Source of the DNA: Branchiostoma floridae
Lineage: Eukaryota; Chordata; Leptocardii; Amphioxiformes; Branchiostomatidae
Direction: 5' to 3'
Length of the DNA stretch: 64,000 nt
NCBI RefSeq assembly: GCF_000003815.2
Contig: NC_049979.1
Span: 14,679,459 to 14,743,458 of the forward strand
The notes under the pieces are model-generated. The model was not told where the DNA came from and did not search any database. It saw only the letters and a program-made list of their open reading frames with translations. Below are positions 8,601 through 34,885 of this stretch, piece after piece (positions within the stretch are counted from its first letter, which is position 1; the number at the start of each line of letters is the position of its first letter). The translations under genes and the position numbers were made by a program.

Positions 8601-11600
8601 TCAAAGTGAACACAAGTTATGTAAGCCCATTCAAATAATACCAGTAACTGTTTCATAGCAATACAGGAACTTGAAGTCTAGACTGTGCTTTTCTTCACTT
8701 CACAGATTGATTTGGGATCTTCAGAGGATGCCATCAATCAAGTCCAGTTTGTGAGGACTTACCCCCAGTGCTGCAACCCGGCTGAGCTCCTCCATCATAG
8801 TGGGCCAGTGCTGCGGCCATTCTCTCTTGATTAACTCTACAACGATCTTGGACAATGCATCCTTGATGTACGGCTGCTCAGTTAAGATATTGTCCACTCC
8901 CTGTGGTGATCATAATAGAGTAAATGTCAAAACCAATTTCAAGTCTCTTAAGTAAGGGACAAAGACCTCCTAACCTCATTCAAGAAAAGAAAACTTACTA
9001 TATGGTACAACCACTTGTCATGGTCAGTGGCACTAGCCAGAACTATTACGTATCACTCAGGGAAGAAGAAAGAGAGGTAGGCGACAAATGGAAGGATGAT
9101 ATCAGAGAATGGACAGGCATGGCACTAAGTGAAACACTAGAAAGGCAACATTTTCCAGAAAATGCAGGATGTTTCCCTTCCAGTGATTTTCCTTTTGCCA
9201 AGCTACTCACACATAATACTATGCCATAAGCATTACCCTGAACCTAAAAATTAAGATAATTTATGCAACTTGATTCATTCATTTAACAAACGCTTTTTGG
9301 AACCTTTTGGTATACAATGCAATGTGAGCAATTGTTCTTAAGAAAATCAGTTTCTTCTTGTGATTTTTTGTGATAAAAATGCAATATGGCCATTTTTTGA
9401 TATAAAGTTAGAATAACATTAACAAGTAAATGAACATAAACAGGTTGTTTCCATTGAACCTAAGTAATTGAAGCAGTTTGAACTTCATTAACATGCCATT
9501 CTTCTATACATCTATTCACTTTAGCTTCATCACAAAATAGACAGACACAACTTCTGTAAACCCTTATCTATACAAAACAAGGAGATGTATCTACTTCAAC
9601 TCAAAGGCCTAACTTTGGGTTTGTTTTAAAAAATCCCTGGGGCTAAATGCCAATTATTACCATAACCCTGCTGGCTTATATCACCCTAATGACGTCATTG
9701 ACGGTTCTTACCTCTGCCATCATTTTCAGCACAGTGTCCTTAAACTGAACCTTCTCTGAGGGTTGCCAGGAGTTCCAACGAAATCTGGAAAAAAATGTTT
9801 TGCTTGAGTTTATGGTTTGCTCAATTTCTTTCTGTAGTAACAATTCTAAAGACCTAAAACTGCTAAGTGACCTGCTAACTGTGCACCTTGCATGTGATGT
9901 CTTGTGTGGCATAATGTGGACATCATACAGATATTCTACCACATTTCAATTACTTGTTTAAGAAAAAGAGGATAAATACATTGCTGTATGAATATGTATC
10001 TGAGATCTTTTAGAATTAGATGGAAGAAAAGCATTGCATGAAATTTTAAGATCATGATCAATTTATTTCCTCCTGCTTGTTTTACCAGGTTTCTTGTTGA
10101 AAAATGAAAATCATCAATGACACACTGTATCTAGACAAAAGAAACATTGTGAATGCAAAATTTTAATCTATTGATAAGTTATCCAACCTGACTAGAAACC
10201 ACTTGTTTGCTTACCTAGCACAGTGTTCCAGTAGTTGAAGCCCAAAGTGTCTGATGACAGGATTGTTGTTTTTCTGTGCCAGCTGCAGACCGCATGCTGC
10301 ACAGTGCGGAGAGTGTTCCTTAAAGTTTTCACAGAGCTGGAACAGAATGATCACATATGTATGTTCACTTTGAACTGTTATTTCACTACATGTGTATAAA
10401 TATTGCTACCACAGTTAAATGATAAACTGGATAGTGAGTGTGTGTGTGTGTGTGTGAGTGTGAGAGTCTGCCATGCATTAGTGGTACGATGCTGTTAGCA
10501 GTAACTGCTACAAAATTATTAAATATATCTCCTGCTGGTGTAATCAATATATTGAAAATACAAAGATTCAAAATAATATACTGTGAGTGTGAGCCAGAAC
10601 TGACAATACACTCCAATTTCTTTCTGTAACTTTTGGCTTACATTTAGAGCTGAGTACCTAAATAGATTTTAGGTACAGGTACATGTACACGGGTTTAGGT
10701 ACAGGTCCGAACCTGTATCTGTACCTGGACTACTCGTTCAAATAACGGATGATCTTTTTCTTAGATGACGACAAAAGCATGTTTGAACTGACATATTGAT
10801 ACCTACAGTGTTTAGTTGCACTAGACACAAGCCTATTGCATAACAATGTACAGACAGTTTCTTTTTTCTTTCATGGGGACTTTACCTTTGATATACAAAT
10901 GCATTATCTATCTATCGCCGCACATACATTCTGATCTCTGTGAGAAGGCTTATGACATATATATGTATTAGAAGTTGTACTGCAAGGTCCATGTACCGAA
11001 GGGCCATGCTGTACTGCAAGGGACATATTTCCATTTCCCTCAATACCGAACAATACATTTATTAAAAGTAATTTGCGCTGATTGCCGACCAATTGGAAAA
11101 AAAGCAGCGTGAGTGAACACATGAGAAGGAAACATGTGGGAGAGAGAAATGACAGCACATCTGACCATCATCCAACGGATATAGAGACAACAACAACAAC
11201 AACAACAAAATAACCAAAATCATGTTATCTTTTTTATATGGTATATTGTCAAGATTTTACTAACACCATGGTTTCGAGTTCTTTAGTCTATTTGCGGTAA
11301 CAGTTGTGCAAGGTCTTTTATCATCAACCATTGTGAAACAACCAGAGGGGCGAGTAAGAACAGAAAGCCCACAGCGACTAACTCGTCAGTTTTCATCCAT
11401 GGTGTTGTGTACTGTTTACTCACCTCCACAATCACCACATGAAGATCTACTTGTTGAGCATCTGATCACAGCGGCGGACCAGCTTCGCACAACGTATCCT
11501 AACATCGGCTTTGCCTTTGTTGGAGACTTTAATCATGTCAATATTCATGACATTCTTTTAGATCGTGAATTCTCTCAAGTTGTCCACAACAATACCAGAG

Positions 11601-14600
11601 GCAACGCAATTCTCGATCTCATAATTACCAACATGAAGACGTGCTACAAGAAGCCAGAAATTCTTCCACCCTTGTCACTCAGTGACCACAACTGTGTGTT
11701 GTGGAAACCGCAGGTGAAGCTCAAACAAAACACAGGTACTAAGAAGACCATCAGACCAATCCGTGAACCCGGCCTGAGCGAATTTGGGAGATGGATCACC
11801 TCACACCCATGGGATGAAGTGTACGGTGCAACAACAGCAACTGACAAGACTAAAGCCTTCTACGAGACTCTTACTACTGCGATCGACAAGTTCTTTCCTG
11901 CAAGAACAATTAAACTTCATCCTAGAGACAAACCTTGGATAACCCCCCAAATCAAGTTCCTCATCAAACAGAGACAAGAGGCCTTCTCAAAAGGAACTTT
12001 TACACCCAATTCAAAGTACTACAAGTACAAGGTGCAGAAAGAGATTCGGAAAGCAAAGAATAACTTTTACAAGGTCAGGGTCGAGAGTAGTAAGACGGAA
12101 AACCCCAGATCATGGCACAAGAACATTAAGAACATGTGCAACATGAACAAGAAGATCAATCGCATCAATACTCCAGGTATAAGTCAAGATGACTCCACAG
12201 CGATTGCCAATGAAATTAACTCTAAATTCGCTGAAGTGTCTCAGTCCCTGCCGCCACTGGAGCCTGCATCGCTGCCAGCCTTCCTGCCGGACTTTCCACT
12301 CCCGACTGTACACGTCTGGGAAGTGTATGCCCACTTGCGTTCCACTAACCCCCATAAGAGTCCTGGACCTGACGGCGTGCCTGCCTCCATACTAAAGGAG
12401 TTTGCATGTGAAATCAGTGGCCCTCTATGTGACCTGATCAACACATCACTCAAGCAGGGAGTCGTCCCCCAGGAGTGGAGAGAGGCAAACGTTATTCCAC
12501 TGCCAAAGTCGTCACCACCACACATTGATGACCTGAGACCTATTTCTTTGACCCCGTTACTAGCCAAAGACTGCGAACGTTTCGTTGCAAACTGGATACT
12601 GGAAGACATTACTCCTAATCTTGACCCTCGCCAGTTTGGCTGCAGAAAGAAAAGGTCAACAACCCACGCTCTTGTGAGCCTCCTGGACTTCATGTACAAG
12701 TCAACGTCAACCCCACCTTCCTCATGCACCCTGGTAACAACCGACCTTTCTAAAGCCTTCGACAGAGTCGACCATGCCACCGCCGTTAGATGTCTGTTGG
12801 ATCTCGGTGTACGCCCTGCCCTAGTACCGTGGTTGTACAATTTTATGTCCAACAGAAGGCAAAGGGTAAACTACATGGGGGAAACATCTGACTGGATCTA
12901 CCTGACATGTGGTGTAGCCCAGGGTACGATCTTAGGTCCAATCATCTTCATGGCTTTGATCGACGGGGCACTTCGGGATGTACTTGATCGTTGGAAGTAC
13001 GTTGATGATATGAACCTTGCACAAATGTGGTCGATCCGTCAACCTTGCACTCTTCAACTGACTTTGAACGACCTGACCTACTGGGTTGACGAGCACTGCA
13101 TGAAACTAAACCCAAAGAAATGCAAAGTCCTACATGTTTGCTTTGCGAAGTCACCCCAACTACCGGAACCACTCACGCTGGAAGGTCAAGCTCTAGAAAC
13201 CGTGGTGTCCGTCAAGGTCGTCGGTGTGACGGTTCAAAACGACCTGAAGTGGAACATTCACGTCATCAACATGACCTCAAGTGCTAACAGGAAACTGTAT
13301 TTACTGCGCAGACTCAAACGTTTTGGTGTGTCGATCGCCGACCTCACAACAGTCTTCACAGCGTACATCCGTCCGGCACTTGAGTACGCGACTCCTGTAT
13401 GGCATTCTTCCCTCACTGTGAAACAAACCGCTAGCCTGGAACGCATCCAGAAGAGGGCTTGCAGGATCATACTTGGTCCCCGTTATCACAGCTACGAGTC
13501 AGCAATGCAGACTTTGAACCTCTCCACCTTGTTTGATCGACGGGTCGGCATTTGTCGCTCTTTCGCCAAGTCCCTGCTAAACTCCGAGTTCCGAAACTGG
13601 CTACCCCCCCTCCGGCAGGAGATTTCAGGACGCCAAACCCGCAACTCGCACAAGTTGGATACCCCATTGTGTCGCCGAACACGTTATATGAACTCACCAA
13701 TCCCATACATGGTTGGACTTTTAAACTCATAACGGTTCCTTGAAACCGATATTTCTAACCTGGTCTCCGCTCATTTGTTTCAGTGCATTTTGATATGTGT
13801 TCAGAGATTACTTGTAATTGTTTCAGTCAGTTTAATGTTTACACGTAACAGATAAAGAACACAGATGATCTGCCGTACCACGTAATTGATATTTAATGAA
13901 ATCAGTGTTCAAATATTTTAATGACCTATATTTTTATATGGATTGGTAACCTGTATTGTTTTTAATGCACTTCAGTGGAATTGTGATGTTCAGAGCAATT
14001 CAGGATGGACATCCTGCAAGTCTGAATTTGAATAAAACTTGAACTTGAAACTTGAAAAAAAAAAAAAAAAGAAACAACACCCCGACTCCCGGGATTCGAA
14101 CCCGCGCCGAACCCGGGCAGCCGGATCACAAATCGAACGTGCAAACCGTTCGGCCAAAGGGCTTAAGCCGTTAGGCGTCTTCGGTTTAGCAGTCCTTGAA
14201 CACCACTGTTACACTACTCCCCCTTTTCTTTTCAAGATTCGTCCTCGAATCCGTCCGAGATCGACATCCCTGTGTGGCACATACTAGCCTGTTAATCACA
14301 GGGCCGGCGTGGGAACCAGTGAAACAACCAGAGGGGCGAGTAAGAACAGAAAGAAACAACACCCCGACTCCCGGGATTCGAACCCGCGCCGAACCCGGGC
14401 AGCCGGATCACAAATCGAACGTGCAAACCGTTCGGCCAAAGGGCTTAAGCCGTTAGGCGTCTTCGGTTTAGCAGTCCTTGAACACCACTGTTACAATTGC
14501 ATCAAATGAAAATGGGTTGCACCATGGTGCACCATTTTTTAAATAAATTCAACAGTTAGCAAAAATATCACATTTTTTAACACTTACTTTATTTGGAAAA

Positions 14601-15366: not shown

Positions 15367-18300
15367 ATGAGTGCGTCGACGTCCTCAACTGGCACACTCC
15401 CCCGCCCCCTCGCGGGTGGGGCCGAGGGCCAGGCTGTCCCCACCCCGGTACCGGCCGGCCCCGATGGCTTCTTCTCCGCCACGGTACTGAACCTGTCCCG
15501 GGCGCTAGCCGCCCTGACCCCCGCCCCTGCGGAGAAGGTGAAGCGGCTGATGCGGCTGTGTGGACAGGAGAACTCGCAGGGAGTGTACACTTTGGACCGG
15601 AGAGGCCGGGATGCGATCGTGGCACTGGGAGTCTTCATCATCGAGTCAGGACTTCAGCACAAGGTGTGTTAAAATGAATGATTATCTGTAGTCTTGGGGT
15701 TGGTCTGTATTGTGCATAACACAGGTGGACTTGTTGTGTTTTATCTTTTGTTGAATAATGATCTTGATTACGACTTTGTCTGCTGAGACAAAGACATTTG
15801 CATTTTCCTCTTCTAAAGTGCAATACATCTGGGGGTTAGGAATTTGTGATAAAAAAATTGGCAGCCAGTAATTCTACATACTGGAGAATGAAGGACATGT
15901 AATGTGATGATTGTACATTCAAGGGTACTTGTTTACAGGGCAAAATCAGCTTCGATGTGATGAATTAGGTGATCCTTTAACGTTGCTTTTTTTTCTCTAC
16001 TTTTTAATAATAATAATATTAATATCGGGTGTATTTGCAGCCAGTAGGTACCCAATGTTAGGATAATGAGGCTGATTAACATGGCCGAGGCGGCGCCTCG
16101 AGCATGTGACCCCTGTTTTACGTCCCATCCAAAAGACGATCAATGTTACCTTACTTAGCATTACACTAGCTGACCAGTAATTAAGTAAGACTAAGAGCAC
16201 CAAATTACATGTAGTACTGGAGATTAGTACAGTGTCTCTGTGGTAAATTATGACTCAGCATAGTATATTATTACAACCAAGGAGGTTAAAAAAAACAATT
16301 TTAACCTCCTTGTTACAACATAATGATAATGATTGGCCGGCTGATCTTTTTCCCAGGAAATCCATATTCTAGTAACCATCAGTTAGTGGTTGTTGTGTGC
16401 TTTCACCTAGTTCAATCTGGGGGGAGTATCGCATACATGGTCTGACAATAAGTCATTTTGAACAGACAAGCAGACAGTAGTTTCAGCAGTCATGGTACTG
16501 TTTGAAATGCAGAGACAGATATTTCCAACGACTCATTAACACTGTGGATTTCAGCTGGTGCTTACAAGGTTGCAGGTTGAGATGGTTCAAACAAAACAGG
16601 GTCACCAGGATTTTTAGTTGATTCCATGTTAGTTAGTTCAATGTAATCTTACACTTGCAGTTAGAATATAATTATAGCATAGTGTAGTTCTTTCTGGAAA
16701 GTCTCCCAGTATATTGAAAAAAGCAACCTATGGGACTTTCCACTTTTATGTTAGATTTCTATTCAACATGAGTTCTTTGACAAATCCAGTTCCTGTGCAT
16801 ATGCTTGGGGCAGTGCAGAGTTACTGAATATGTCAAGGCCCTGTCTTTAGATTTATCCCCAAACCCTGTCCACCTAGGCCAAAAATTAGAAATACAAAAA
16901 AAATTACAGCCAGTCTCTGATTTGTACAACTACTGGCTGTGATGTATTGTCAGCCCTAGTCTAACTTCTATGACCACCTTAGTTATATGGATCCTGGTAA
17001 ACAATGGAGATTTAATGCTGAACAGTCAGTCTACATCTCAGTGTGAGACTTATGACTGCAATTTTCGTCTCATTTTCAGGAGCTCCTAGTCCCCTACCTG
17101 ATCGAAATCCTTAGAAACCTCCCTGGTGCTCATTGGATCCCTTCCCCCACCACAAGTAAACAGGTGAGTGAAGCTCTACTGTGTTAACCAAAACAGAAGT
17201 AAGAGTAGAAAATCCTTTTAGACAGTTTGTTGAGACGTAACTCTTACAGAAGTCCTGGGCTCAAATCCCCTGATATGTCCGAAACTGTGCCTATGGGAAA
17301 GGAATTTCCCTACTTCAGATGGGTCAAAATGTGTACTTCAGTTAGGGATGAGACTTAAGATTGTGGTCTTGTGTTTAAGGAAAGCTGCACCTCCAGCACA
17401 TAAAAGAACCCACCACACTTATCGAAAAGAGTAGAGGTCCTTACAGTTGTGAGTTGATCAAATCTTACAATTGAGGTACCTTGCATATACTGCCATAATG
17501 ATCATCATAATGGGCACCAAAGGAAGAAACAGCACTCTACCCATTTGCAGGTTGTAACATTGTTTCTTCCCATAGAATGGCCTTCCTGAGAGTGAGCAGT
17601 TCAGCTTCTGCCTGGTGACTCTGTTGACAGACATAGCACACAGGGATCCATCCTTCCGTGGGGAGATCATCACAGCTCAGGTAGAAGTGCTGCAGGTCAG
17701 TAGGATCTTTAGGTTGCTGAAGCTATTTGTATCCCATCGCGTTCATGTAAACAAAATGGCACAGTCTAGATAGGTTAACTTCTGTTACATGATAGACCTG
17801 GATATAAATGCTCTCCATGTTCTCCACAGTCTTTAACTTAAAAGATAGAATAGGGAGAAATTGCCATGGTGCCATGTTGCCTGGACCTTCCCTTCATCTT
17901 ACTTAATTCTGGACTTAAGAAATTCCGAAGAGCTCCTTGTCCCCAAAAGCCTAGATAAAAAGAATTGCAACCTATATTTGACTTTGAGACATGGGCTATG
18001 AATCAACTATAGTATGAAGTAAAAGAGGCTATTGTCATCATCAAAGAAATAAAGAAGAATGAATTGTTTCATGTTTATCTTACAGACCCTTGCCACCTTG
18101 TGCCAGAGTGCTGACATCCCCAAAGTTGCCCTTTGCAGTATAGTTGTCCCCTCTCTGCTGGGAGTTGCTCGTGCGCTCGGTCGGTACAGCACCGGCGACA
18201 TCGGCCTAATCTCCCAGCTGTTTCCCCGTGAGACTTTCTGCTCCCCTGCATCCACTCGAGTTAGCACACCTGCCACACCAACCTTCCCTGTCCTGGGGCA

Positions 18301-21300
18301 CAGCCGTCCAGTCAGCGCCTGTCTACAACTTACACTCAACCTACAGGGACACTTTTTGCCCCCCTCTCCCAACCCCTCACCAACGCCCTCCCCACGAGGG
18401 TCAGAAGGTGCAGCCATCTTTGGCAGCTCTCTGCCTAACTCCCCCATCCATGGAGGTGTATATCAGGGGGTGATGTCTCCACTGGCTTCAGAAGATCTGT
18501 TGCAAACTGTTGGCACCAGCTTCCCCATGGCGGCCACGCTAGGAGGGACAAGGAGAGCCCCTTTACATCTCAATCCAGCCCAGTTACAGGATATCCTGTC
18601 CACCGCTAAATCTCTCCTTACCAAAGACATTCTCAAGAACTTGGATGCAAAAGCAACAGAGTGCTTCATGCCTGGGGGAGGCCCAAGCTACCCCTATCAT
18701 TCCTTCAGCGAGACTTTGACGGTTGTGTTGACCAATCTTCTTCACGATCTTCTCTATAATGTAAAGGATCTTTCTGCCTCGTTTACCAAGGAAGTCCATG
18801 ACTTCATCAAAGGTTTGTTCATTGCGGGACAAACGGAGGTCATGGAGAAACTAGCAGAAGCAAAACTTTCCTACAAGGCGTTCAACCCAGTGGTGCTGCA
18901 TGTTAGAGCCAACGCTGCCTGTGTGGACCTGCTGGTATGGGCAGAGCAGGAGGAGGCAGGGGTGGATGCCCTCTGTAGTCGTCTCCAGGAGAAACTTAAC
19001 ACAAGCACAAGCTCCAAGCTGGTGGTATTGCACATGCCACTGCTCCTGTGCTGCCTGCAGGGCCTCGGGTCCCTGGCAGAAAAGTTTCCCGGGAACACGT
19101 ACAACATTCTCAACATTCTCCGCGACTTCCTGATCAACCCTTCCCCCCTGGTGATGAAGCTTCACCGTCTGCAGGTCACCACTGCCACCAGGGGCAATGC
19201 ACACTCACTCAGTGGGCCTCCATCCATCCATGTTACCGGGACCAGTCCTGTTCACTCACAGAGTCAGTCTTCTACCGAGTACCACAGCCTGCGCGACTCA
19301 GCCATTACCAACATCTGCCGTGTCCTAAAGGCGGGGATAAAGGACGATCCAGACTGTGTTCATGCGTTTCTGGCATCCCTGTCTAACCGGCTGTATGCTG
19401 CCGAGATAAGTGACAGGGAATCAACTCTCATCTCCACCCACACTATTCACATCCTTGGTGCTATTGCAGTTACTTTCAAGGATGACCTCAAGACCATGCA
19501 GTCAGTCCTTCAGATCTTCCAGCAGCGGTTCTGTAGCCCTGCCTCTCCTCTAGATGTCCTTATTGTGGACCAGATGGCTCTCATGCTCCTAGCAGGAGAA
19601 CCTACCACGTACCAGGAGATCCTGAAGATGTTCATCACAATCACTGTGGAGGCAGGGTCTGCCACGTACTCACAGGACCTTCATGCTACCAACAACAAAG
19701 CCCATGGTTACAGGCATGTTTCACTGGCAGTCATCAATGCCCTGGGGGTTGTAGCTAGTAATTTACAGGGTGAGGAACAGCTTCAGCAACTTCTTGTCCG
19801 TTTGCTGGAGCTGTTTGTGCAGATGGGGCTTGAAGGTAAGCGAGCGAGTGAGAAGGCCAGCGAGAAGTCCTCCACAGCAATCAAGGCTTCCAGCAGTGCA
19901 GGAAACTTGGGCATCCTCATTCCGATCCTGGCTTTGTTGATGAAACGCTTGACCACAATCGTAGACCCCAATCCACGGCTGTACAAGCTGTTTCGTGACT
20001 TCTGGCTGTACTGTGTGGTCATGGGATTTGTCACAGAAGGTGCCGGCTTGTGGCCACCGGAATGGTATGATGGTGTTTGCGAGATCGCCACCAAGTCCCC
20101 TGTGTTGCTGTCTCCAGGCGGTGAGCACCTACGGTCAGAGCTCCAGTACAACTCAGCACTGAGGAATGATGCTGCAGGGCCAGCAGAGCTGTATGAACTG
20201 AGGGCCACAATCCTCAACCTCCTGGGACATCCAGCAGAGGTAGGGTCACTCATTAACAAGCTCAGCTTTGCCCAGTGCACCTACCTTCTCTCTGTGTTCA
20301 AGTTGGAAACTATGAGAGTCAAACACTCCACAGATATGAGTAGCTTTCACCTCGTCTTCCGCTACCTAGAGGACAAACAGGTGCAGAAGGACAAGGCAGG
20401 GATGCTGCAGTGTCTGCTTGCTGTTGCTGATCAGGCTTTCAAGATCTTCCTTGATGTCATGACCAACAAGCCACGGACAGATGTGTGGGAGAAAGAGCTT
20501 GTCAAGCATGCCCAGTTCCTACTTGTCAAGTTCAACCATCAGATGAAGCGCATCCGTCGTGTTGCAGACAAGTTTTTGTCAGGGCTTGTTGACCGGTTTC
20601 CACACCTACTGTGGAGCGGGGAGGTGATCTCTACCATGCTGGATATTCTACAGCTCCTGTCCAAGGGACTGCAGAGGGATTCAAAACTTGAGGCCATACA
20701 GGCAAAAGTTCCCAACACCTCCCATCAGCTAACTATTCCAGATACCATTGAGGCGAGGGAGAGTGTTGTGCAGGACTTTGCCGCTCGGTGTACAGGTATT
20801 TTGCAAGAGGCACTGAAGTGGGCACCTGCAGCCACCAAGTCTCACCTGGAGGAGTACTTGAGAAAAATCGAAAACACCTGCGACGGACTGACCAAACATG
20901 CGGGCATGGCCCTTGCAGCAGAAAGCATTTTGCAATACGCAGGTAACACGAAGGATGTGGCTACGTCAAAGATAGACAAGAGACCAAAGTGTGTGAACAA
21001 GGATCATTCCAGTTTTGTGGCTTCCACCAACATGAGGAGCTGCTTCATGGGTGAGGTGCAAGGCATGTTGAGTCTGTGTCAGGGCGATGAGAGGAGGCTG
21101 GCAAGGACCTTCCACCAACAGCTCACTGCATCCTCACAAGGCAGGGACTTCCAGCATTTCCGTAAGTCCCTCTTTAGAGTTACAGCTCTCCTCATCAACA
21201 GCAAGGGCTGCCACCGGCCTCTGCTGCACAGCCTATCCCAGGCACCCATACGCTATTTCACAGACAAGGCCATGGAAACCACCATCTGCTGTTGGCAGTG

Positions 21301-24300
21301 GTTGCTAGCGGCTAGAGCAGACTTGGAGCTTCCCTTCATGCTGGCCATGACAGCAGCCTGGAAGATGGGAGTGGACATGCGCCTCGGGCTGTTCATGCAC
21401 AACGTGGACGAGGTGGACGTGCTGGCTAGCTTTGGGGAGGAGGACTGTAAGTCAAAGGCGCCATATGTTGAGCCGCACAACATCTGGATCAACTTCCTGA
21501 TGGAGAGGTTTGAGGTGGTGAAGTACCGCAGCACCTCACAAGTGGAAATGTTTGCCGACCTGCTGCACTACTCCCTGCCGATGTTCGTGGGCGGAAAGGA
21601 CCCCATCATGAACCGACATGTTGTTGGGGTTGGTGCCAGATTCCGGCTTCTCACCCTTGGTCTCCTGCTCCTCCAAGGCGATGTCCTGCCCAGCTGCCCC
21701 AGCAAGAATGTGCTGCGGGAGAAAGTCTACACCACAGCATTTGACTACTTCACAGCCGTTCTACCCATTCCACTCAAGGACACCTTGACATTGAGGGAGG
21801 TTGTGGAGATGGTCATGAAGTTCTGGAAGTCACTTCATTCGGACAAGAAATACTTAAAGACAAGCCACGTGATTGGTTCTAGTTTCCCTGAACTTGACTC
21901 TGACACCATTAGTGTGCGTAGTGCCACTGCAACCATGACGTCCGTTCCTGCTGATCTGCGAGCAAGCTCAGACGTTGGCCCTCGTTCAACTCAAGGTTGG
22001 GTAAACACCATGCCAATGTCCTCCAACATGTCTGCCCTGTCCAGGCGGTCCACAGGAACCACCCGTAGCAAGAGCAGGGTGGGAGAGGTAAGGAAAAGTT
22101 TTTTTATTGTCATTGAATGATTGATGATACTGAGTAGAATACATTCAACAACGTTTGAGAAAAACAACTTAATTACATGGCTGCATGTAAAAATGTAAAG
22201 ATAAAGACATAACATATGCATAACGTGCACTTTGTTGAGTGTGTACGTAACATTTGGAACTTTGGACCCCACGACTTTTTGACAAGTAAAGGTGTTTGAT
22301 AAACAGAAGCATGTTGTGTCGAATGACACTTGAAACATAACTACTGAGTAGCAATGTATGATGTGTCTAGCTTCCTAAAGTGACTGGTGTTTTGTGATTG
22401 GGCCAGGTACTGGTGAAGGACTACATGCGGCGACGAGGGCTGCTGCTGTCCCTGGTGGGGAACGAGATCGAGCGGCTAACGACATGGTACAACCCGCTGG
22501 GTCTGTCAGAGCTAAGCTTCGTGGGGCAGGACACCATCACGGCGTGGCAGTCGCAGCCCATGTCAGACAGGGCCTGGAGGGACACGGTACAGATGGCGTG
22601 GGACATCTCCCCACGACTAGCACTGCAGCTCCCAGCCAGGTGGGGGAACCATTCCTTACTCAGTAGTCCCTAAACACTCGTCCCTTCATTGGTTAGGAAC
22701 ACATTTTCCACATTGCAGGTATACAAATGGAAGTAGTCATCTCCATGCTACATACAACTGACACTCCACTTCAGTAACACGTTTAGATGCAGTCTCCTTT
22801 TCTACAGTCTCAAGTGTATGACATTGTACCTAGAAAGGTGATACATACAGTTGTGCAATTGGCTAAAAGTTGTTCTCACGCTGCTTCTACAGGTTCCGTC
22901 AGACTGAAGCCATTTCCAGGGAGGTGACACGTCTAGTCAGGAATGACCCCCAAGCAGTTGTAGATGTCCCGAGAGCAATCCAGGTAAAACTCTGTCAAAT
23001 TAATTTTCAGTTCTGTGTATATAGAGTCTTTTTTTTTACCTGTATGTGTTTGCAAAGTTGAAAACAGGAAGCTCAAAAACAATGACAACATGAATGAACA
23101 GATCTATATTCAAATACAGATCAGGTATTTCCTCAAGGATTACTGACTGAGTATTGTGTAACAGGGTAAAATGCTGTCTTATTCTTGCAGTTCCTTTTGC
23201 CTGTGAGAGTTGAGGAAAAGTCACCTGACCAGAAAGTAGGCCTCACAATGGCAGCACAGCCTGTTATAGATTAACTTATTCTTCTACTCTATAAGTAAAA
23301 ATCTCAGCTTGGACCAGGAATGCTTATAACAGTTATAAAAGCAAGATGGGGCAAAATGCTGCATGGGTGGAGGTACATGTGTATGTGCTTTGAAAGTTGT
23401 TCTTCTAATCAGGGAAAATATATTGCAGGAGAGCACGCTATATCTCTTTCCTGTTTGCTGAAATACCTGGTTAACAAACACTGTGGAGGTGGGCCATTAC
23501 AAAATAAACAAAATGCTACATGGGCTGAGGTTAGCACTTGAGGTTAGCTCTTCCTAGTTCAAGCTTCAATGTACTGTTAAACATTTTCTACTACAGTACC
23601 TGGTCACAGAACACAGTGTTGAAGTGGATGCCCCAGAACTGAGCCACATCCTCACCTGGACAGGTGTAAACCCTGCTATGGCGCTATCGTACTTCTCGCG
23701 CCAGTTCCCACCACATCCATTCACCTCGCAACTTGGCGTGAAGGTCCTGCGCTCCCTCCCACCCGAGGTCACCCTGTTCTACGTGCCACAGCTGATCCAG
23801 GTGTGATGCCATGCAACACCATTAATTTTCATTGGTAAAAGGGACAGAGATACAAATGTCTGTAACAGAAGTAATCACTTCACCTGGAAAAAAATTAGGT
23901 GCTAATACAGATGTTTACACTAATAATCCAGCACTTTCATGACAGCTCTATGATTCAATCATATACAAACTATGATCATTTCTACAATTCCTGGGTCATC
24001 TATATATAGTATAGTACATGTCTACTTGCATATGCTAAAGTTATATTACCCAGTTTTTACATCGTACACTTAACAATTGTTGTGCAATGAGGTTTTTGTG
24101 TCTACAAATGTGACAGTCAGTTTCCATTTCTTTCCCCAGGCTCTGCGCTATGACACCATGGGGTATGTACAGGAGTATATCCAGTGGGCCAGTCGGCGCT
24201 CCCAGCTCCTGGCTCACCAGTTTGTCTGGAACATGAAGACCAACGCTTACACTGATGAGGATGGCACCATCAAGGACGCAGAGGTGTGTATTTGCTTCTG

Positions 24301-27193
24301 TATAAATCAGTATAGCAAGACACAATGGTTCACTACACTTAAGTTAAAACATCTTCTGACACCTAATCCCTCGATACCAAGAGTTATCAAAAGCTGTCCA
24401 TTGAAAAGGCCCCTGCCAGGCTATATGACAATGAGCCCCTTTTTACAGGTCGGAGATCGTTTTGAGGCCATGATCGAACTGATGACTCGGACATTGTCAG
24501 GGCCAGCCAAGGAATTCTATCAGCGGGAGTTTGACTTCTTTGGGAAGGTGACGGCCATCTCAGGGGAGATCAGGCCCTATCCAAAAGGTGCAGAGAGGAA
24601 GAAGGCCTGTCTCAAGGCCATGAAAAAAATTGCTGTGAGTACCCAAGATCTGTTTTGAGCATGACACTACATAAGGATTATCAATTATACTAAACTGAAA
24701 TATATGATTCACAAAATAGACCATGTTGCCCACATTTGCCAGTATGTGTACATACATGATTACCTAGTTTCAAGGTGGAATCAGGAAAGAGCAACCCTGT
24801 TATATGTTTGAACAATATGGTATGGTCTAACCCTTGCTCCTGGTGCAACTCAGGTCCAGCCTGGCTGTTACCTACCCAGTAACCCTGAGGCTGTTGTGTT
24901 GGGAATCGACTACAACTCAGGAACTCCCCTACAAAGTGCAGCAAAGGCACCTTTCCTAGCCAAGTTTAAGGTTTGTTTGTTTTTTTCCAACTTATTTGCT
25001 TTATGACTTATGACTCACTGAATTTTCTGATTTATCCTCTTCATTCCTGAAGAGACCATGGCTTTTTTTCTTCCATCTGGGTCATAGAAACCCCAGCCTA
25101 TAATGTCATTGGGTCTTGGCTGTTGGCACACTCTCTACCTTTACATAAAAGGGTTGCTGTCCTTTAGACAGACACATGAGTAACTTCTTAGTTATGTCAC
25201 AATAAACATACAAGTTATTGACAGATAAGCATTGTTAGCTCAGGAATGTTTTGCCCAGTTGCAGACAAACTTCTGTCTGAATAGTCTTGATGTGAAACCT
25301 GAGACTGTACCTCCCTGCAGGTTAGAAAGTGTGGGATCAATGATCTGGAGAACCTTGGCCTGGAGGGAGGGGACACAACAGATGGAACAGCAGAGGAGGT
25401 CTGGCAGGCAGCCATCTTTAAAGTGGGAGATGATGTGCGGCAGGACATGCTTGCATTGCAGGTATGTTGTATTGACAGATTGGGTTGGTATGGAGGTTTA
25501 CTTCTTAGTACAAGCAAAAGATATCCAAGATCTGTACTGTAGTGCAAGTATTGGCTTATGCAATGAATGATGCCCACAGTTCTAGGGTGGCAGCCATTTC
25601 ATGGTGATTAGTTGTGAATTTCATATCAAGCACAATTTCCCAGACTAATAATTGCTTGTGTTGTATGTACCAACTACATGTTCATCTTTGTACAGCCTGT
25701 GGGAGAATAGCTTAAAAAGCTCAATATGTCCACAACCTTTCCTTAAGGTTAAACTGAATGGAGACAATCTTCCTCTACAGGTGATGACGCTGTTTAAGAA
25801 CATATTCCGGCAGGCGGGTCTGGACCTGTTCCTGTACCCGTACCGGGTCATCGCCACCGCGCCGGGCTGTGGGGTCATCGAGTGCATCCCCGACACCAAG
25901 TCTCGCGACCAGCTGGGACGACAGACCGACATTGGCCTTTACGAGTACTTCCTGCAGAAGTATGGGGATGAGATGACCCTCATGTTTCAGAATGCCCGCC
26001 GGAACTTCATTGAATCCATGGCGGCTTACAGCGTTATCGGGTTCCTGCTACAGATCAAAGACAGGCATAACGGAAACATCATGCTGGACTCACAGGTAGG
26101 GAAGCCAGTTAAGGAGAGAAAGGGGATTGCTTTGTGCAAATGCATGCAAGTCAGTCATTTTTCAGTCTCACTTTTTAAATAACTTTTTCAAGTTATTATT
26201 TGATAAATGAAATTGAAAATGTTGCAATTAGAAACCCAACTTGTTGTTCAAGTGAGTGCCTTTAAATGGGATGATATCATCTCTGGTCTGCTGCTCCTTG
26301 CCTTGATTTCAGATAGCAGAGTTATCAAAGCTGTATAAACTGTACATTTCATCTGTCCTTGATTGAACCAGTGAGAGTGAGGCTTCCTGTATACTTCAAC
26401 TTTCATTTTGTTGCTGCTACTCAGGGCCACATCATGCACATCGACTTTGGCTTCATGTTTGAGAGCTCCCCGGGTGGAAACCTGGGCTGGGAGCCAGACA
26501 TCAAACTGACCGATGAGATGGTGATGATCATGGGTGGGAAGATGGATGCCCCGCCATTCCGGCGCTTCATGGAGCTGTGTATACAGGTAATTCATGTGGG
26601 CTACATTATCTGCATATGGAAATATGGAGGCAGTCAATAACAATTAGATTGATGACAAGAAAATTGACTACATCTTACTGCTGGTGTACTGAACCCAAAT
26701 TTGTGTGCTATCAATATGGGATGCTTATGTAAGGTATGCTGAGCTGTTTGTGCAATGTTTAAGGATAGTCCCCTTTTCAAAGTGCAACCAAGAACCACCA
26801 TTGACAAGAATATGGATATTTCCTTGTGGGTGATGGCCACTCACATATTTGTTCAAAATTTTAGAAATGGCAAGTTAGCTTGTTAGATTTTTCTCGTCAG
26901 CTGGGCCAATTTCAATGGGATAAAAGCAACTATTTACCACTTGTTTCTAGGGCTACCTTGCTGTGCGCCCCTACCAGGAGGCCATTGTGTCACTGGTTGC
27001 ATTAATGTTGGACACGGCACTGCCATGCTTTCGAGGCCAGACCATCAAACTGCTTCGCCAGCGCTTCGCTCCCCTGCAGAACGAGAGGGACGCGGCCAAC
27101 TACATGCAGAAGGTCATCAAGGACTCCTTCCTCAACTACAGGAGTATCACCTACGACATGCTGCAGTACTACCAAAACCAGATCCCCTACTAG
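15367..27193 (+). CDS. PI4KA: Phosphatidylinositol 4-kinase alpha (type III), complete
   Basis: The enzyme makes PI4P from phosphatidylinositol at the plasma membrane, in a complex with TTC7 and FAM126 (family knowledge). Coding exons: 15367-15663, 17080-17163, 17576-17695, 18086-22087, 22407-22639, 22893-22983, 23597-23800, 24140-24283, 24449-24634, 24854-24970, 25321-25461, 25781-26095, 26425-26586, 26951-27193. They join to 2,112 residues; human PI4KA is about 2,100. The large N-terminal alpha-solenoid is followed by the PIK accessory region ([13 protein letters not shown]) and the kinase domain. In it I place the ATP-binding lysine at K1860 (AAIFKVGDD), the catalytic loop DRHNGN from D1967 and the DFG motif at 1985-1987. 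The C terminus QYYQNQIPY matches the family. The first exon is GC-rich and encodes a low-complexity, family-variable start. All junctions are GT-AG. The 4,002-bp exon 4 is unusual. Confidence 0.96.
16003..16215 (-). mobile_element. SINE-like repeat in PI4KA intron 1
   Basis: On the minus strand the segment contains GTCTTTTGGATGGGACGTAA, a word I associate with the 3' half of tRNA-derived SINEs of invertebrate deuterostomes. It ends in an ATT-repeat tail (about 16006-16022 on the plus strand), as such SINEs do. I could not place a clear B box at the 5' end, so the start is approximate. Confidence 0.5.
16278..16312. mobile_element. 35-bp perfect palindromic micro-element with 7-bp TSD
   Basis: The 35 bases start CAAGGAGGTTAAAA and end with the inverse TTTTAACCTCCTTG, with a 7-base loop. 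Immediately outside are two exact copies of TTACAAC (16271-16277 and 16313-16319), the mark of an insertion. A sister copy lies at 44625-44649. The element is far too small to encode anything. Confidence 0.7.
17215..17470 (+). mobile_element. SINE-like repeat in PI4KA intron 2
   Basis: The segment begins near a B-box-like GGCTCAAATCC (17249 region) and runs into GAACCCACCACACTT (17406-17420). That 15-base word recurs in inverse at 31420-31434. The order, tRNA-like head followed by a conserved body, fits a tRNA-derived SINE. Ends are approximate. Confidence 0.5.
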
Positions 27194-29678: not shown

Positions 29679-32600
29679 CTAATCCAACTCAAACATGACT
29701 TTGTTGGTGAACTGTACAGCACACTCAGCCCTGTGTTCAGTCACTACCTCCTCCTCACCAGTTTTGACATCCCTGATTGTTAATGCATCCACAGCTTGTG
29801 GTTTGGGTTTCTTCTTAGCAGGGTCAGATCCTTCCTTTTTAACATCACCGTCTCCAACTTCATCTTGACCTGCTAGTTTGTCTTCAGACTCTGACACAGA
29901 CATAGACTCTGTGTTGGACACACCCGTAACAGTGCCAGCTTCTGACACAATTGCTTCACCAAAATCAGCTGTGGTGGGTTCACCTTCTGTCTTTCCATGA
30001 CCATTTGCTACCTTCTGAGCATTCTGATTATCTTTCTTACTCTTTTGCTTCTTTTTGCTTTTTCCATTCTTTTCATCAAGTTTGTGGATTTCCACCTTGT
30101 CCGAAAAAGTGACACTTTTCTTCCCTGAGTTCTTCCTTTCCCTTCCTGTGTTGATGATGGTTTTGTCAAAACCAATTGTGTCTTGAGTAGATGCTCCTTT
30201 CTTACTCTGTGAAACATTTGTTGACTGATTGGAGATGGCAGGTTTGCTTGATGTGTCTGTCTTTCTTTCCTCTTCCTCCTTTACCTCCAAGAGTCCACCT
30301 TCCTCACCTGATGTCCCTGGTCCAGTCTTACCGCCAGCATTAGAGTCCTGACTTTGACCTTGAGTTTTCCCTTTCTTTTTCCTTCTCCTCCTTTTTGTCT
30401 TCCCTGTTGGCACATCTGTATCATTGTCCTTGAGTAAGACATTCTCACCATCTTGTACCGTCTCAGCAGGACTTTCAACACCGTTTCCAGAAACAGACTT
30501 CTCTGGCACAGCTTCTGTTCCCAGAGCATTGCCCGAATCATCATCATCATCACTATCCAACCCCTCTCCCTTCTTTCCTGCCTCAATCATTTCACTGACA
30601 CGCTCCTTAATAGAAGACTTCCCAGATGATGTTTGAGATGAGAGGTTGTCCTCATCTACCGTCACACCTGTGGGAGTGGGTTTTTCTCCCATCTCCTGCT
30701 TCTGCACACCCGTGGTCTTCTGTATTTAAAAAATGAAGATATGCAATATTGTAATGTTTACTCATTACGAATGACTACAGACATTACAATGGGAGCCTAT
30801 GCAGCATACATCATACCAACCAATCCTTGCTGTCCAGGATAAAAACTGTTTGGCCAATGATAGAGTGGCTACTTTTGGTTTTAGCTAGCCATAAATTCCA
30901 TTCACTAAGCTAACAGATACATTACATTGTCTTTTGTACTGTACAAAACTACTGAAGAATGAGTGATATGTTAAAGTCCCTGGCACCAATTCTATAATTC
31001 TTCATGAAAAGTCTTCTGATATACTCACAACATTCTTGGTATTCTACATAGTCTTAACCTAGACCATAGCACAGGAAGTGTTACAAGTCAAAAGCATCAA
31101 ACTAACCGTGAGTTCAATAGCCAGCTTGTCCTCCGATGCCTCTGTGACCTTGACACCGATCGTGTCAGCAGCCTCAGCCTGACCTTCACTGACCACTGCC
31201 TGGACAGCTGCCTCCACACTAGCTTCTGTCAGGAACTGTTTCTCCTGGAAGGACGCAGGGTGGACAATTAGCAGATATGACATTGAATACCTACAACCAT
31301 TCATATCTCAGTACAGAGTTGGCAAGAACATCCATATATCCATACATCTGCCCTATATGCTACCTTAGGGGTGCATAAAACCTACCTGATTTGAATCCTG
31401 GACTTCTACTATCACCCACAAGTGTGGTGGGTTCCTTAACGTGTTTGAGGTGTGGCCTCTCCCCTCACATCTTGCATTGCCCGCAGAATAAACCAATACC
31501 GCAACCAACATGCAAATCCAGTTTCAAAATATCAACTCTTAAGCTACAGATGTGATTACGAACATTAGACAACAGCATAACAGCTTTCAAGTACTTACCT
31601 CTAAGTTCATGATGTCCACCCCAGCCTTAAAGCTGGCCCACAATCCTTTGCAGCTGTCATCCTTGTGCAGAAGCAGCACGGCATTGTGGGGAGACACGTC
31701 CATGGAGGTCCGACCCCGTACCACAGTGTTACCGTCCAGCAGGACCACAAACAGCTGGTAGTACTGCAGCCCAGCGGTACCTGTAGGGATTGGAAATACA
31801 TGTATTTGTTAAATGCTAACTCATCACCTCTGCATAAAAGTCTTTAAGAATTAGAGCTTACTCTAAACATTAGGACAGCAGGAACAATATCATATCAGTG
31901 GCAATAAATGTACTAGTCTAGTATTACAGACATTGCATCACAGGAGGTACATACATTGTGTATATCAACATTAGAATGCATTCTAACAACTTCCTTTGCA
32001 CTCATGTGCACATAGTTGAACACAAAAGGACATATACTTAGCATGTTTAAATGTTGACAGAAATATTATGATCCTCTGTCACCATTATCTGTGGGTGTGA
32101 ATAGGTTATTGCAAGTCAGTAACATCAGTACCTGCTGCCTGGAACTGTACACTGATGATATAGCTGGATGTTGAGTAGGTTTTACTGATGCTCTTCTCAA
32201 TGATGTTAGGGACATGGATGACAATTGTCATACTGTCCTCATCCTGTCTGAAGGTGTAGTCAGGACAGGTGGGGGGAGCAGGTGTGGCTCTAACAGGTGC
32301 GGTGCTGACAGGTGTGGCTGAGTCAGGGGGCAGATCCAGGCTTGTGGAGCTGCTTTGAAGCTCATCCTCTTCCACGAAAATGTCCTTGTCTGATGTATTG
32401 GCAGTGTCTGTTGCAGTCTCCACTCCAACATCACTGGCTGGACCACTCCCTATCTCTTCTGTCTGAGCTGCTGCTGGGTTTCCACTCCTGCTGTCTGGCT
32501 CCACCTCTGACACTCCGGTTGGTATGATGTTCTCTCCATCCTGTATATGGTTCTCCTCTGCTTTCTCTCCCACCTGTACCTCTGTGACTTCCTCCACTAG

Positions 32601-34885
32601 CTGCTTGTCTTCTGTCCTCCCAGCCGTGAATGGAAGGTCAGCCTCTGGGGCTGGCTTCACCACCAATGTCACGGTCAACCGCCTCTTGCTCTTGTCAAAC
32701 TTTGCGCCTCCTTTGTTCTCATCTACAGGATAAGGCAGGCTGATGTCCAGCTTGTACGCAGGTTTCTTGGACTCCACCCTCAGCTGTTTCTCAAAGATGT
32801 CCAGCTCCAACTTAGCTGCTGACTTCAGCAGAGGAAAGTCAATGTCAACAACAAGTTCCTTAGGTCTTGTGGACGGAGCGGCATCAGGTGCTTCTCGGAA
32901 GTTCTGGATATCAAACTCTGATCGGTGCTTGATGGTGTACTTAGGCACTGTGAAATCTTGCTTCTTTTCTGGCTCTTTTTCTTCCTTAGATTTGGATGGG
33001 CTCTGTGTTTGTTTTGCCGTTTCTGTGTTTTCTGAAGAGGGACTATAAGGATAGGGAAACTTGATCGGATCATCGTCATTGTCAGGGGTAGCCTGGGGTC
33101 CATCAGATGACGGTTTCCTATAAAAGATAGATCAACAATCTGCACATAAATTTGTGCATAACTCAGCAAATTTACATGACAACTGGCTAAAGACCCATCC
33201 TACTAAGAATTATGATAGGTTCAGTTGTAGAGCACCTATACAATGTTCAGAAGTAAAACTGCACTTTTCCCTTCCATAAATTGCAAGAAACTAAAATACA
33301 CAAACTAATGGAAAAACAACAGAAAAACTAAAGCAACAACTGCAATTTAGGAAAAACAGCATCACTATATAATCTAAAGTCCCTCTCAACAAGTCTGCAC
33401 AAAAATTTTTCTCCAATTTTTCCCCACCTCATCACTGTAGCAGTAGGGTTCCCCTTGTACTTCATCTTGGGAATCTTGATGTTTGTTTTGTCCAGTTTTA
33501 CCTGGAACTGCCTCTCTAGAGCACTGAAGGCAATGTCATGCACCATCTGTTTGAACCTGCAAAATGGCAATAAGAGTAACATGTTTGTTCCTTTCTTTGT
33601 TTAAATCTTAGGTACTCAGTTTTTATTCAAATATCTGTAACGACACGGCATCTTTTTTACATGAAGAAGGCTTTTCTATTTAATGATATATTGTGTTACC
33701 TTTTATCAGCAGCGGCCTTTTGTAGCGTCTCCTGATGAAACACAACATCGTACACCATGCAGCGCTGCTTGTCCTTATCCAAGTCCTCCCGGCCTGGTGT
33801 CAGGCTGTGTGGAACAGACCAGGTCTGACCCATCCTCCTGCTGGGCCCCTCCCCCTGCACACAGGGCTGGCTGGTGGGTCTCTGGAACAGAAAAAACAAT
33901 TCATCATGCAGCAGAACTTGTAACAAGTCATCTACATTTTAATGGTACAAAGCCAATTAATGCGTCACTTCAAAATGCCCCTTGCCAGCACTATTGTTGT
34001 ATTCTGAGTCATTGCCTATCTACTAGAGGTCTATACTTAAGTTGCACAAGAGTTATCAGTTAACACATAGGGGAATAGATTGACTATCTGATACAAGTGA
34101 TAGGAATAGAAAATTTCAATATGGCATATTGCCACTTGACTTGATGCCTATAGATAAATGTGTGGGGAAACAGGTCTTTCCTCACCTCAATATGCTCATT
34201 AGCACAAATGTTGATAAAGCATTTCTTCTCCCCGTCCAGGGAAGTTTTGATAACATAGTGAGGTTCAGGGTTAATGAAGGTGACGTCAGTCCCCCGCTCC
34301 CTCTCCATGGCCGTGATCTCTGCCTCATATCTGGAACAGATAAGAAGTCCAGGCTAAACAAGATGACGAACAAGTTTGTAGATAAACTGATCATTTCAAA
34401 GAAGGAGGGAGAAGATGTCTACGAAGAGGGGAAACTAACCAGAGGTCAATTGCTTGGAAAATTGAATGAGGTTAAAATTCCATCCTCCATATGAAACATT
34501 TTTTTAAAAATGGACATTTATGGGAAAACAGATGTTGCACTTAAGAGCTAAACATTCCAACGTACTGCATGATTATAAGTTCCCATCGACAAATCTCTGG
34601 TAAGCAAGGATCTTATACCGTTACTTGTTGCAAGCAAATCGCTTGGCTGCTGACCAATTCGCCCCCCTCCCACTTCGTTTCATCTGAAGAACAAGATAAG
34701 ATAGGTTTATAATAATCGCATGGGTATCTGATCTTGTACCTTTTCCGGTTTTCTGGATCAGATATTTCCTCGGCGTACTCGGCGAACAGTTTCCTGAACT
34801 CCTCGCTCTTGAAAGCTTTCTCAAACCGCTGGAGTTCATCCTGTGTCATGTTCAGGTCTTCCAACTTCTCTCGACCCGACGCCAT
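29679..34885 (-). CDS. DNAAF2: Kintoun, dynein axonemal assembly factor 2, complete
   Basis: Kintoun works in the cytoplasm with HSP70/HSP90-type chaperones to preassemble ciliary dynein arms. Coding exons on the minus strand: 34740-34885, 34186-34330, 33700-33881, 33428-33556, 32132-33117, 31599-31780, 31107-31244, 29679-30719; together 982 residues (human about 840). The N terminus (LEDLNMTQDELQRF, then FAEYAEEISDPENRKRYEAE) matches the family. A PIH1 domain spans about residues 45-205, with PEPHYVIKTSLDG and MVYDVVFH. After a linker comes the CS-like domain with PKELVVDIDFPLLKSA and LDISLPYPVD. The C-terminal half, mostly one 1.04-kb exon, is acidic and lysine-rich (a KSKKKQKSKK cluster) and looks disordered. 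The end VMFELD resembles the human YDLD terminus. It is 140 residues longer than human, all in this low-complexity part. Confidence 0.93.
31390..31480 (-). repeat. SINE-like fragment in a DNAAF2 intron
   Basis: On the minus strand it contains the same GAACCCACCACACTT word as the plus-strand repeat at 17406-17420, and a B-box-like GGATTCAAATC lies at its far end. It is probably a second, shorter copy of the same SINE family. Confidence 0.45.

Follow-up and report, generated by a model that had tools for sequence, protein, structure and literature searches.

What is the interrupted 458-bp element on the minus strand of a 64-kb stretch of the lancelet Branchiostoma floridae genome (contig NC_049979.1; all 64,000 nucleotides are hereafter the window), and how is it copied? 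The element is a real and recently active retrotransposon, with an interior between two long terminal repeats (LTRs). Taken as a whole, the evidence makes it very probable that it is a miniature LTR retrotransposon with a tRNA-like LTR, and we propose a cycle in which RNA polymerase III (Pol III) would transcribe it and tRNA-Glu would prime its reverse transcription. The part of the result that a specialist would not expect is a set of genomic fusions in which an antisense copy of the primer tRNA follows the LTR.

The element comprises an LTR of 176 bp, an interior of 106 bp, and a second LTR of 176 bp; it ends in TG...CA and has ATTG on either side. Its parts, and the insert that interrupts it, are as follows (window coordinates; nt, nucleotides).

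11330..11333, no strand: first copy of the target-site duplication, ATTG, read from the sequence.
11334..11367, minus strand: distal piece of the 3' LTR (LTR nt 143-176), 34/34 identical to the 5' LTR.
14071..14213, minus strand: proximal piece of the 3' LTR (LTR nt 1-143), with an A box at 14146-14156 and a B box at 14092-14102.
14214..14319, minus strand: interior, 106 bp, too short for a coding region, with interior matches elsewhere in the genome.
14217..14232, minus strand: polypurine tract AAAAGAAAAGGGGGAG, ending 3 nt ahead of the 3' LTR.
14304..14318, minus strand: primer-binding site TGGTTCCCACGCCGG, after a one-base spacer C; its 15 nt pair with the 3' end of tRNA-Glu(CUC), with one G-U pair.
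14320..14495, minus strand: 5' LTR, 176 bp, TG...CA, supported by genomic LTR matches.
14373..14438, minus strand: tRNA-Ser-like stretch of the 5' LTR, by tRNA alignment score, with an A box at 14428-14438 and a B box at 14374-14384.
14496..14499, no strand: second copy of the target-site duplication, ATTG, read from the sequence.
About 11368..14070, plus strand: 5'-truncated non-LTR retrotransposon inside the 3' LTR, not part of the element, recognized by a reverse transcriptase frame at 11366-13732 and an A run at 14055-14070.

The first-pass annotation had proposed a proper miniature LTR element (a terminal-repeat retrotransposon in miniature, or TRIM) at 11334-14495. The 176-bp LTRs, ATTG duplication, primer site, and purine tract all bear this out, and the coordinates are correct as a span, although they take in the non-LTR insert. 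The two LTRs show no mismatch over the preserved pieces, and the proximal piece of the 3' LTR may include up to 3 further nt that are common to the LTR and the poly-A of the insert. BLAST gives the LTR pair a value of 98% over 154 nt, with 3 differences that all lie where the alignment enters that poly-A. Tandem Repeats Finder called no array at the element's place in the window.

We searched the window's own assembly (513,431,437 bases in 431 contigs) with the LTR and the interior and scored the best 40 of 1102 first-look LTR candidates and the best 40 of 434 interior candidates; these 40 LTR matches comprised 2 at 100% and 38 at 99% identity. The resulting 77 loci with flanks, many of them overlapping, formed 62 match clusters and then, by left flank, 56 distinct sites: two clusters at L021 were merged, and L052, the second cluster of L072, L076, and the second cluster of L077 were dropped because the LTR start was missing, as was the antisense match L057. 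Where the LTR match fell short, the right end was allowed to lie up to 19 nt past it.

The first-pass annotation had said that its proposal would fail if genome copies never showed this order with short duplications, or occurred only as a satellite. What we found was the order LTR-interior-LTR at 48 of the 56 sites (44 single units and 4 LTR-interior-LTR-interior-LTR arrays), and an exact 4-bp duplication beside TG...CA at 39 of those 48; none of the 39 showed a 5-bp duplication. By the rule of our script, nine sites had no duplication; one, L028, runs into N, and another is the window copy itself, which was scored in this way because the insert cuts its match. Two solo LTRs with duplications were also present (L019, L029). 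Among 35 single LTR-interior-LTR elements with a duplication, 10 had identical LTRs, and the median and maximum LTR divergence were 0.6% and 5.1%. Together with the matching LTRs of the window copy, this upholds the earlier suggestion of recent movement.

More distant relatives include L057, with an LTR at 77%, and interiors at 72 to 91% in L147-L151, L159, L160, and L163. Some subfamilies retain the start of the LTR and have ...TTTCTACA in place of ...GTTGTTTCA at its end. In three groups (L105, L107, L111, and L125; L108-L110; L116 and L118), the LTRs resemble one another in their starts or tails and differ in their tRNA-like middles, which would fit an exchange of promoter modules.

Each LTR carries, on its sense strand, one exact A-box motif (TGGCCGAACGG, at LTR nt 58) and one exact B-box motif (GGTTCGAATCC, at LTR nt 112). 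The A-box motif alone is common, with 62 matches on both strands of the window; the B-box motif has two matches only, one per LTR. When the LTR was shuffled 20,000 times by dinucleotides, none of the shuffles contained an A box and a B box spaced 35 to 75 nt apart. We compared the LTR with 39 distinct called tRNAs from 60 stretches of the same genome, a set with 17 isotype-anticodon labels in which the isotypes are incomplete and at least one label (Gln, L127) belongs to an altered primer copy. The best fit was tRNA-Ser(UGA), with a score of 50, followed by Ser(AGA) at 46, Leu(CAG) at 45, and Ser(CGA) at 44; a score of 50 was reached by 0 of 1000 and, in another set, 0 of 300 shuffled LTRs. 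The tRNA-like boxes reported by the first-pass annotation are therefore present, with tRNA-Ser(UGA) as their closest model. The alignment spans the A box to the B box, is gapped at the variable arm, and stops short of the acceptor stem; therefore, the stretch reads as a promoter-like relic rather than a tRNA gene. Within the window, ARAGORN called no tRNA gene and no Rfam family reached its gathering score; a weak, T-arm-sized match to the tmRNA model scored 14 bits against a cutoff of 47.

Each LTR also contains a 24-nt near-palindrome around CTTAAG (14435-14458 and 14153-14176; LTR nt 38-61) that is 83% self-complementary. It lies immediately upstream of the A box, at the expected position of a Pol III start, and could fold as a hairpin at the 5' end of the RNA.

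The signals for reverse transcription are conserved. All 56 near-complete interiors start with N-TGGTTCCCA and finish with the purine tract and TAG, followed by TGTAACAG; GGGGAGTAG precedes TGTAACAG in all 56. The primer site occurs as CACGCC in 46 interiors, CATGCC in 7, and CACACC in 3. There were 59 tRNA-Glu-like matches in the genome, of which we fetched 20, and 12 of these appeared to be intact genes. The 3' end is CCGGTGTGGGA in all six CUC genes and CCGGCATGGGA in five of the six UUC genes, so CACACC suits the CUC form and CATGCC the UUC form; the majority form, CACGCC, makes 15 pairs with tRNA-Glu(CUC), one of them G-U. None of the 12 genes encodes the terminal CCA.

Integrated copies of a tRNA provide indirect evidence for which primer is used. 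Three of the 59 tRNA-Glu-like matches lay directly behind family LTRs, in antisense orientation and with CCA. A pattern consisting of CA-N-TGG and the next 22 nt complementary to tRNA-Glu(CUC) then matched 32 genomic loci (L009, L021, L025, and L098-L126), compared to 0 for the same pattern read backwards; we read all 32 matches, and in each an antisense tRNA-Glu(CUC) copy with CCA comes after an LTR-type end. Seven copies extend to tRNA nt 1 and are identical at 75 of 75 positions, 21 end at nt 2-21, and 4 end at nt 37-44. Because these copies carry CCA and the 12 intact tRNA-Glu genes do not, they derive from mature tRNA. The copies thus point, indirectly, to tRNA-Glu(CUC) as the primer used. 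The same pattern for tRNA-Leu(CAG) had 0 matches in the genome, and a shorter pattern for tRNA-Glu(UUC) had 1 match, whose sequence was unread. Seven of the 20 fetched tRNA-Glu-like matches are probable copies that are more diverged.

A BLAST match to the window LTR lies upstream of the copy in 28 of the 32 loci. Looser LTR marks are also present: a U5 word (a loose pattern picked after the sequences were seen) in 27, a TGTAACA start in 22, and a B box in 20, with at least one mark in 30 loci and none in L099 and L112. What comes after the tRNA copy varies: the tail of an LTR, a complete LTR, an interior, or unrelated DNA. In 21 loci the LTR could be read to its left end, and 7 of these (L025, L100, L108, L113, L120, L125, and L126) are closed by the tail of an LTR and then the 4-bp duplication that belongs to the element. 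This count started from 10 rows with CA and the left 4 bp, from which L115 and L117 (no LTR tail) and L106 (an artefact) were removed; L021 is closed by ATTT behind its array. The plainest reading of the copies is that second-strand synthesis ran past its usual stop in the primer.

Two loci have other arrangements. In L115, a full-length tRNA copy runs into the reverse complement of the LTR start (AACACCACTGTTACA), so that the arrangement is inverted. In L104 (G000:C6:16096248-16096925), a sense tRNA-Glu beginning at nt 1 gives way, at the B box, to the tail of a window-type LTR, and an antisense tRNA-Glu fragment comes after that tail. We considered L104 as a member of a family with a tRNA-Glu promoter and rejected this: the join is unique in the genome at up to 3 mismatches, and the preceding sequence is not a window-type LTR start.

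The cycle we propose would run as follows. Pol III, directed by the two boxes within the 5' LTR, would start slightly upstream of the A box and read through the interior and the 3' LTR. A tRNA-Glu(CUC) would anneal behind the 5' LTR and prime the first DNA strand, as the antisense, CCA-bearing copies behind LTRs indirectly suggest. The purine tract, which is conserved, would prime the second strand, which would normally stop inside the primer tRNA before transfer; an integrase would then insert the TG...CA DNA with a 4-bp duplication, as the sequence of the insertion sites shows. Where the stop is missed, the second strand would copy at most to the 5' end of the tRNA and switch template, giving a product that could still be inserted. 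Such missed stops would account for the LTR-tRNA fusions, of which there are at least 32.

The first-pass annotation had suggested looking for a larger Ty3-type partner; exact patterns for a shared primer site or purine tract found no such autonomous element in the genome (about 700 bases downstream were viewed, as were reading frames in L154). The 18-nt tRNA-Glu(CUC) site followed by a base other than T had 1 match, L153, which is an altered tRNA copy. The pattern joining the purine tract to an LTR start whose seventh base is not A had 7 matches, all in L147-L152 with related LTR or interior pieces. A relaxed primer-site pattern gave 18 matches compared to 1 for the backwards control; among the 10 fetched, L159, L160, L161, and L163 are related elements, and L162 matched nothing. 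The other five of these 10, L154-L158, have a common left flank over the approximately 19 nt compared, with an LTR and the first 58 nt of an interior, and look like one larger repeat.

Several points weigh against the proposed cycle or narrow the evidence for it. The sampled sites are the best-scoring relatives of the window copy rather than a random draw, which biases them toward close relatives, and the 56-site count leaves out 5 clusters that lack an LTR start or lie in antisense. Four of the 32 fusions (L099, L112, L121, and L124) have no upstream BLAST match to the window LTR. Mobilization by Ty3/Gypsy enzymes is suggested by the 4-bp duplication and the published pattern, and no partner was found. 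With respect to Pol III, the 70 LTRs contain 24 runs of at least four T, none of them in the window copy, and the 23 that lie near the A box could end Pol III transcription early. A run of this kind in the 3' LTR could terminate a Pol III transcript, and one in the 5' LTR would need to be passed. Conservation of the A and B boxes in these 70 LTRs, from young copies, does not significantly exceed that of random LTR blocks (0.35). Finally, we infer Pol III transcription of the element from its sequence.

The T runs, the block test, and this reliance on sequence all favor the alternative that survives best, namely an ordinary TRIM transcribed by RNA polymerase II, in which the tRNA-like stretch is the relic of a short interspersed element (SINE) that fell into the LTR and is no longer relevant. 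Against this alternative, 0 of 70 LTRs contain AATAAA or ATTAAA and only 1 has a TATA-like word; the boxes are still intact, the A box in 66 of 70 LTRs and the B box in 68 of 70, and TTTT is absent from the interiors of all 35 single elements. The LTR and interior of the window copy are likewise free of TTTT, which shuffling gives a chance of 0.07, a merely suggestive value. We regard this alternative as unlikely but deserving of serious attention.

A much weaker case can be made that the antisense tRNA-Glu copies are not copied primers but element insertions beside tRNA-Glu genes, produced by targeting of Pol III genes. According to titles and abstract openings in the literature, tRNA genes are indeed targets of some LTR elements elsewhere. 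Very little probability attaches to this explanation here, given that the tRNA complement begins at the primer-site position in 32 of 32 loci (as the CA-N-TGG pattern demands) and that the copies bear a CCA missing from intact tRNA-Glu genes. We consider it even less probable that the element is a dimeric tRNA-derived SINE, with units 282 bp apart that are moved by a non-LTR retrotransposon. Each unit does have tRNA-like A and B boxes on its sense strand; however, a tRNA-derived SINE is a single, target-primed unit without LTRs, whereas the LTR order, TG...CA ends, 4-bp duplications, purine tract, primer site, and antisense CCA-bearing tRNA are marks of LTR-type copying, and the integrated primer copies contradict the SINE explanation directly. 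A tandem satellite of the 282-bp unit that mimics an LTR element by chance, for which one could cite the arrays at 4 of 56 sites and a diverged array in L151 that extends off the fetched stretch, can be dismissed, as 44 of 56 sites hold single units, each of the 4 arrays lies within one 4-bp duplication, solo LTRs with duplications exist (L019, L029), and no tandem array was called in the window.

A miniature LTR retrotransposon with a tRNA-like LTR therefore remains our reading, and its kind is already known. The first-pass annotation was right about an animal host but had regarded an animal family with a tRNA-like LTR as notable; such TRIMs with tRNA-derived LTRs were described in 2024 (Kojima; PMC10886601) as Helenus, with hosts in six animal phyla, in fungi, and in one plant. 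According to the text of that paper, Helenus elements measure 311 to 1263 bp, animal members make 4-bp duplications, bivalve members have primers that include tRNA-Glu, some families have tandem arrays and solo LTRs, Pol III transcription is unproved, and Gypsy-type mobilization is inferred for the animal members; no complementarity was found between the tRNA-like sequence of the LTR and the primer site. By sequence, the window element has the published structure of animal Helenus or "TRIMp3". It has the size of a TRIM, a short noncoding interior, a tRNA-like LTR with A and B boxes, a tRNA primer site behind the 5' LTR, a polypurine tract, and 4-bp duplications (39 of 48). As in most Helenus families, its LTR is not predicted to encode a working tRNA; as in some, there are tandem arrays and solo LTRs; and as in bivalve Helenus, the primer is tRNA-Glu. 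Here too, the LTR stretch and the primer point to different tRNAs, with best fits to Ser and to Glu, respectively.

Relative to Helenus as published, the differences are a cephalochordate host, absent from Table 1 and the main text of PMC10886601, a tRNA-Ser-like promoter, and whole primer-tRNA copies behind LTRs, which that text does not describe. As far as the same text and table show, a tRNA-promoter TRIM is new for cephalochordates; a paper on amphioxus transposable elements (PMC5802833) does not mention TRIMs in the parts available to us. Cassandra of plants is likewise a miniature LTR element with sequence from a Pol III gene in its LTR (PMC10886601), but that sequence derives from 5S rRNA, and here no 5S was found among the 10 matches to 14000-14560 at E values up to 10. 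Ajax of nemerteans, also treated in PMC10886601, resembles the window element in being a miniature LTR element of animals whose promoter comes from a Pol III gene, and differs in the 5S origin of that promoter and in its 5-bp duplications.

The insert in the 3' LTR has a reverse transcriptase domain (PF00078, E = 4.5e-27) and breaks the LTR at nt 143. Its 3' end is AATAAAACTTGAACTTGAAACTTGA, followed by the A run, and its own target duplication is at most AAAG, which overlaps the poly-A. On the element's sense strand, this poly-A becomes 16 T in a row inside the 3' LTR, which would be a strong Pol III stop in the window copy. Elsewhere in the window, at 18053-26182 (plus strand) and 32106-33131 (minus strand), there are pieces of host genes with PI4-kinase domains (PF19274, PF00613, and PF00454) and a PIH1 CS-like domain.

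As for precedents of the LTR-tRNA fusions, titles and abstract openings, with few subscription papers among them, described no insertion of an entire primer-tRNA copy behind the LTR of a retrotransposon; the closest case there is a self-primed tRNA-Gly copy at HIV proviruses (PMC12220202). The second-strand stop of HIV-1 is m1A58, and an unmodified primer tRNA is copied through to its 5' end; tRNA-Glu(UUC) in SARS-CoV-2 particles has low m1A58 (both from the available text of PMC13191261). The HIV-1 product 'P1' resembles our copies in that second-strand synthesis continues beyond A58 as far as the 5' end of the tRNA primer, but it was seen with unmodified tRNA in vitro, with extension past A58 in methyltransferase-mutant cells, and was called not usable (PMC13191261, same text). 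Unlike 'P1', the read-through products reported here are integrated in a natural genome.

We put forward, tentatively and as a proposal with the odds against it, that tRNA-Glu(CUC) often escapes the second-strand stop, that the resulting fusions seed CCA-bearing copies genome-wide, and that the primer may supply or renew the Pol III promoters of LTRs. If this is true, homology between the B box and the T arm, used as a template-switch point (compare L104), would be a route to a promoter besides a SINE falling into an LTR. The copies also make it testable whether weakly modified A58 in tRNA-Glu is the cause and whether copied primers lead to overcounting of tRNA genes in such genomes. According to an old idea, strong-stop DNA that became joined to a primer tRNA gave rise to short tRNA-derived elements, and integrated primer copies bear on that origin. 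With this family, cephalochordates join the hosts of tRNA-promoter TRIMs, with recent insertions and an identified primer, and each integrated primer copy preserves, in a natural genome, the trace of a second-strand stop that failed.

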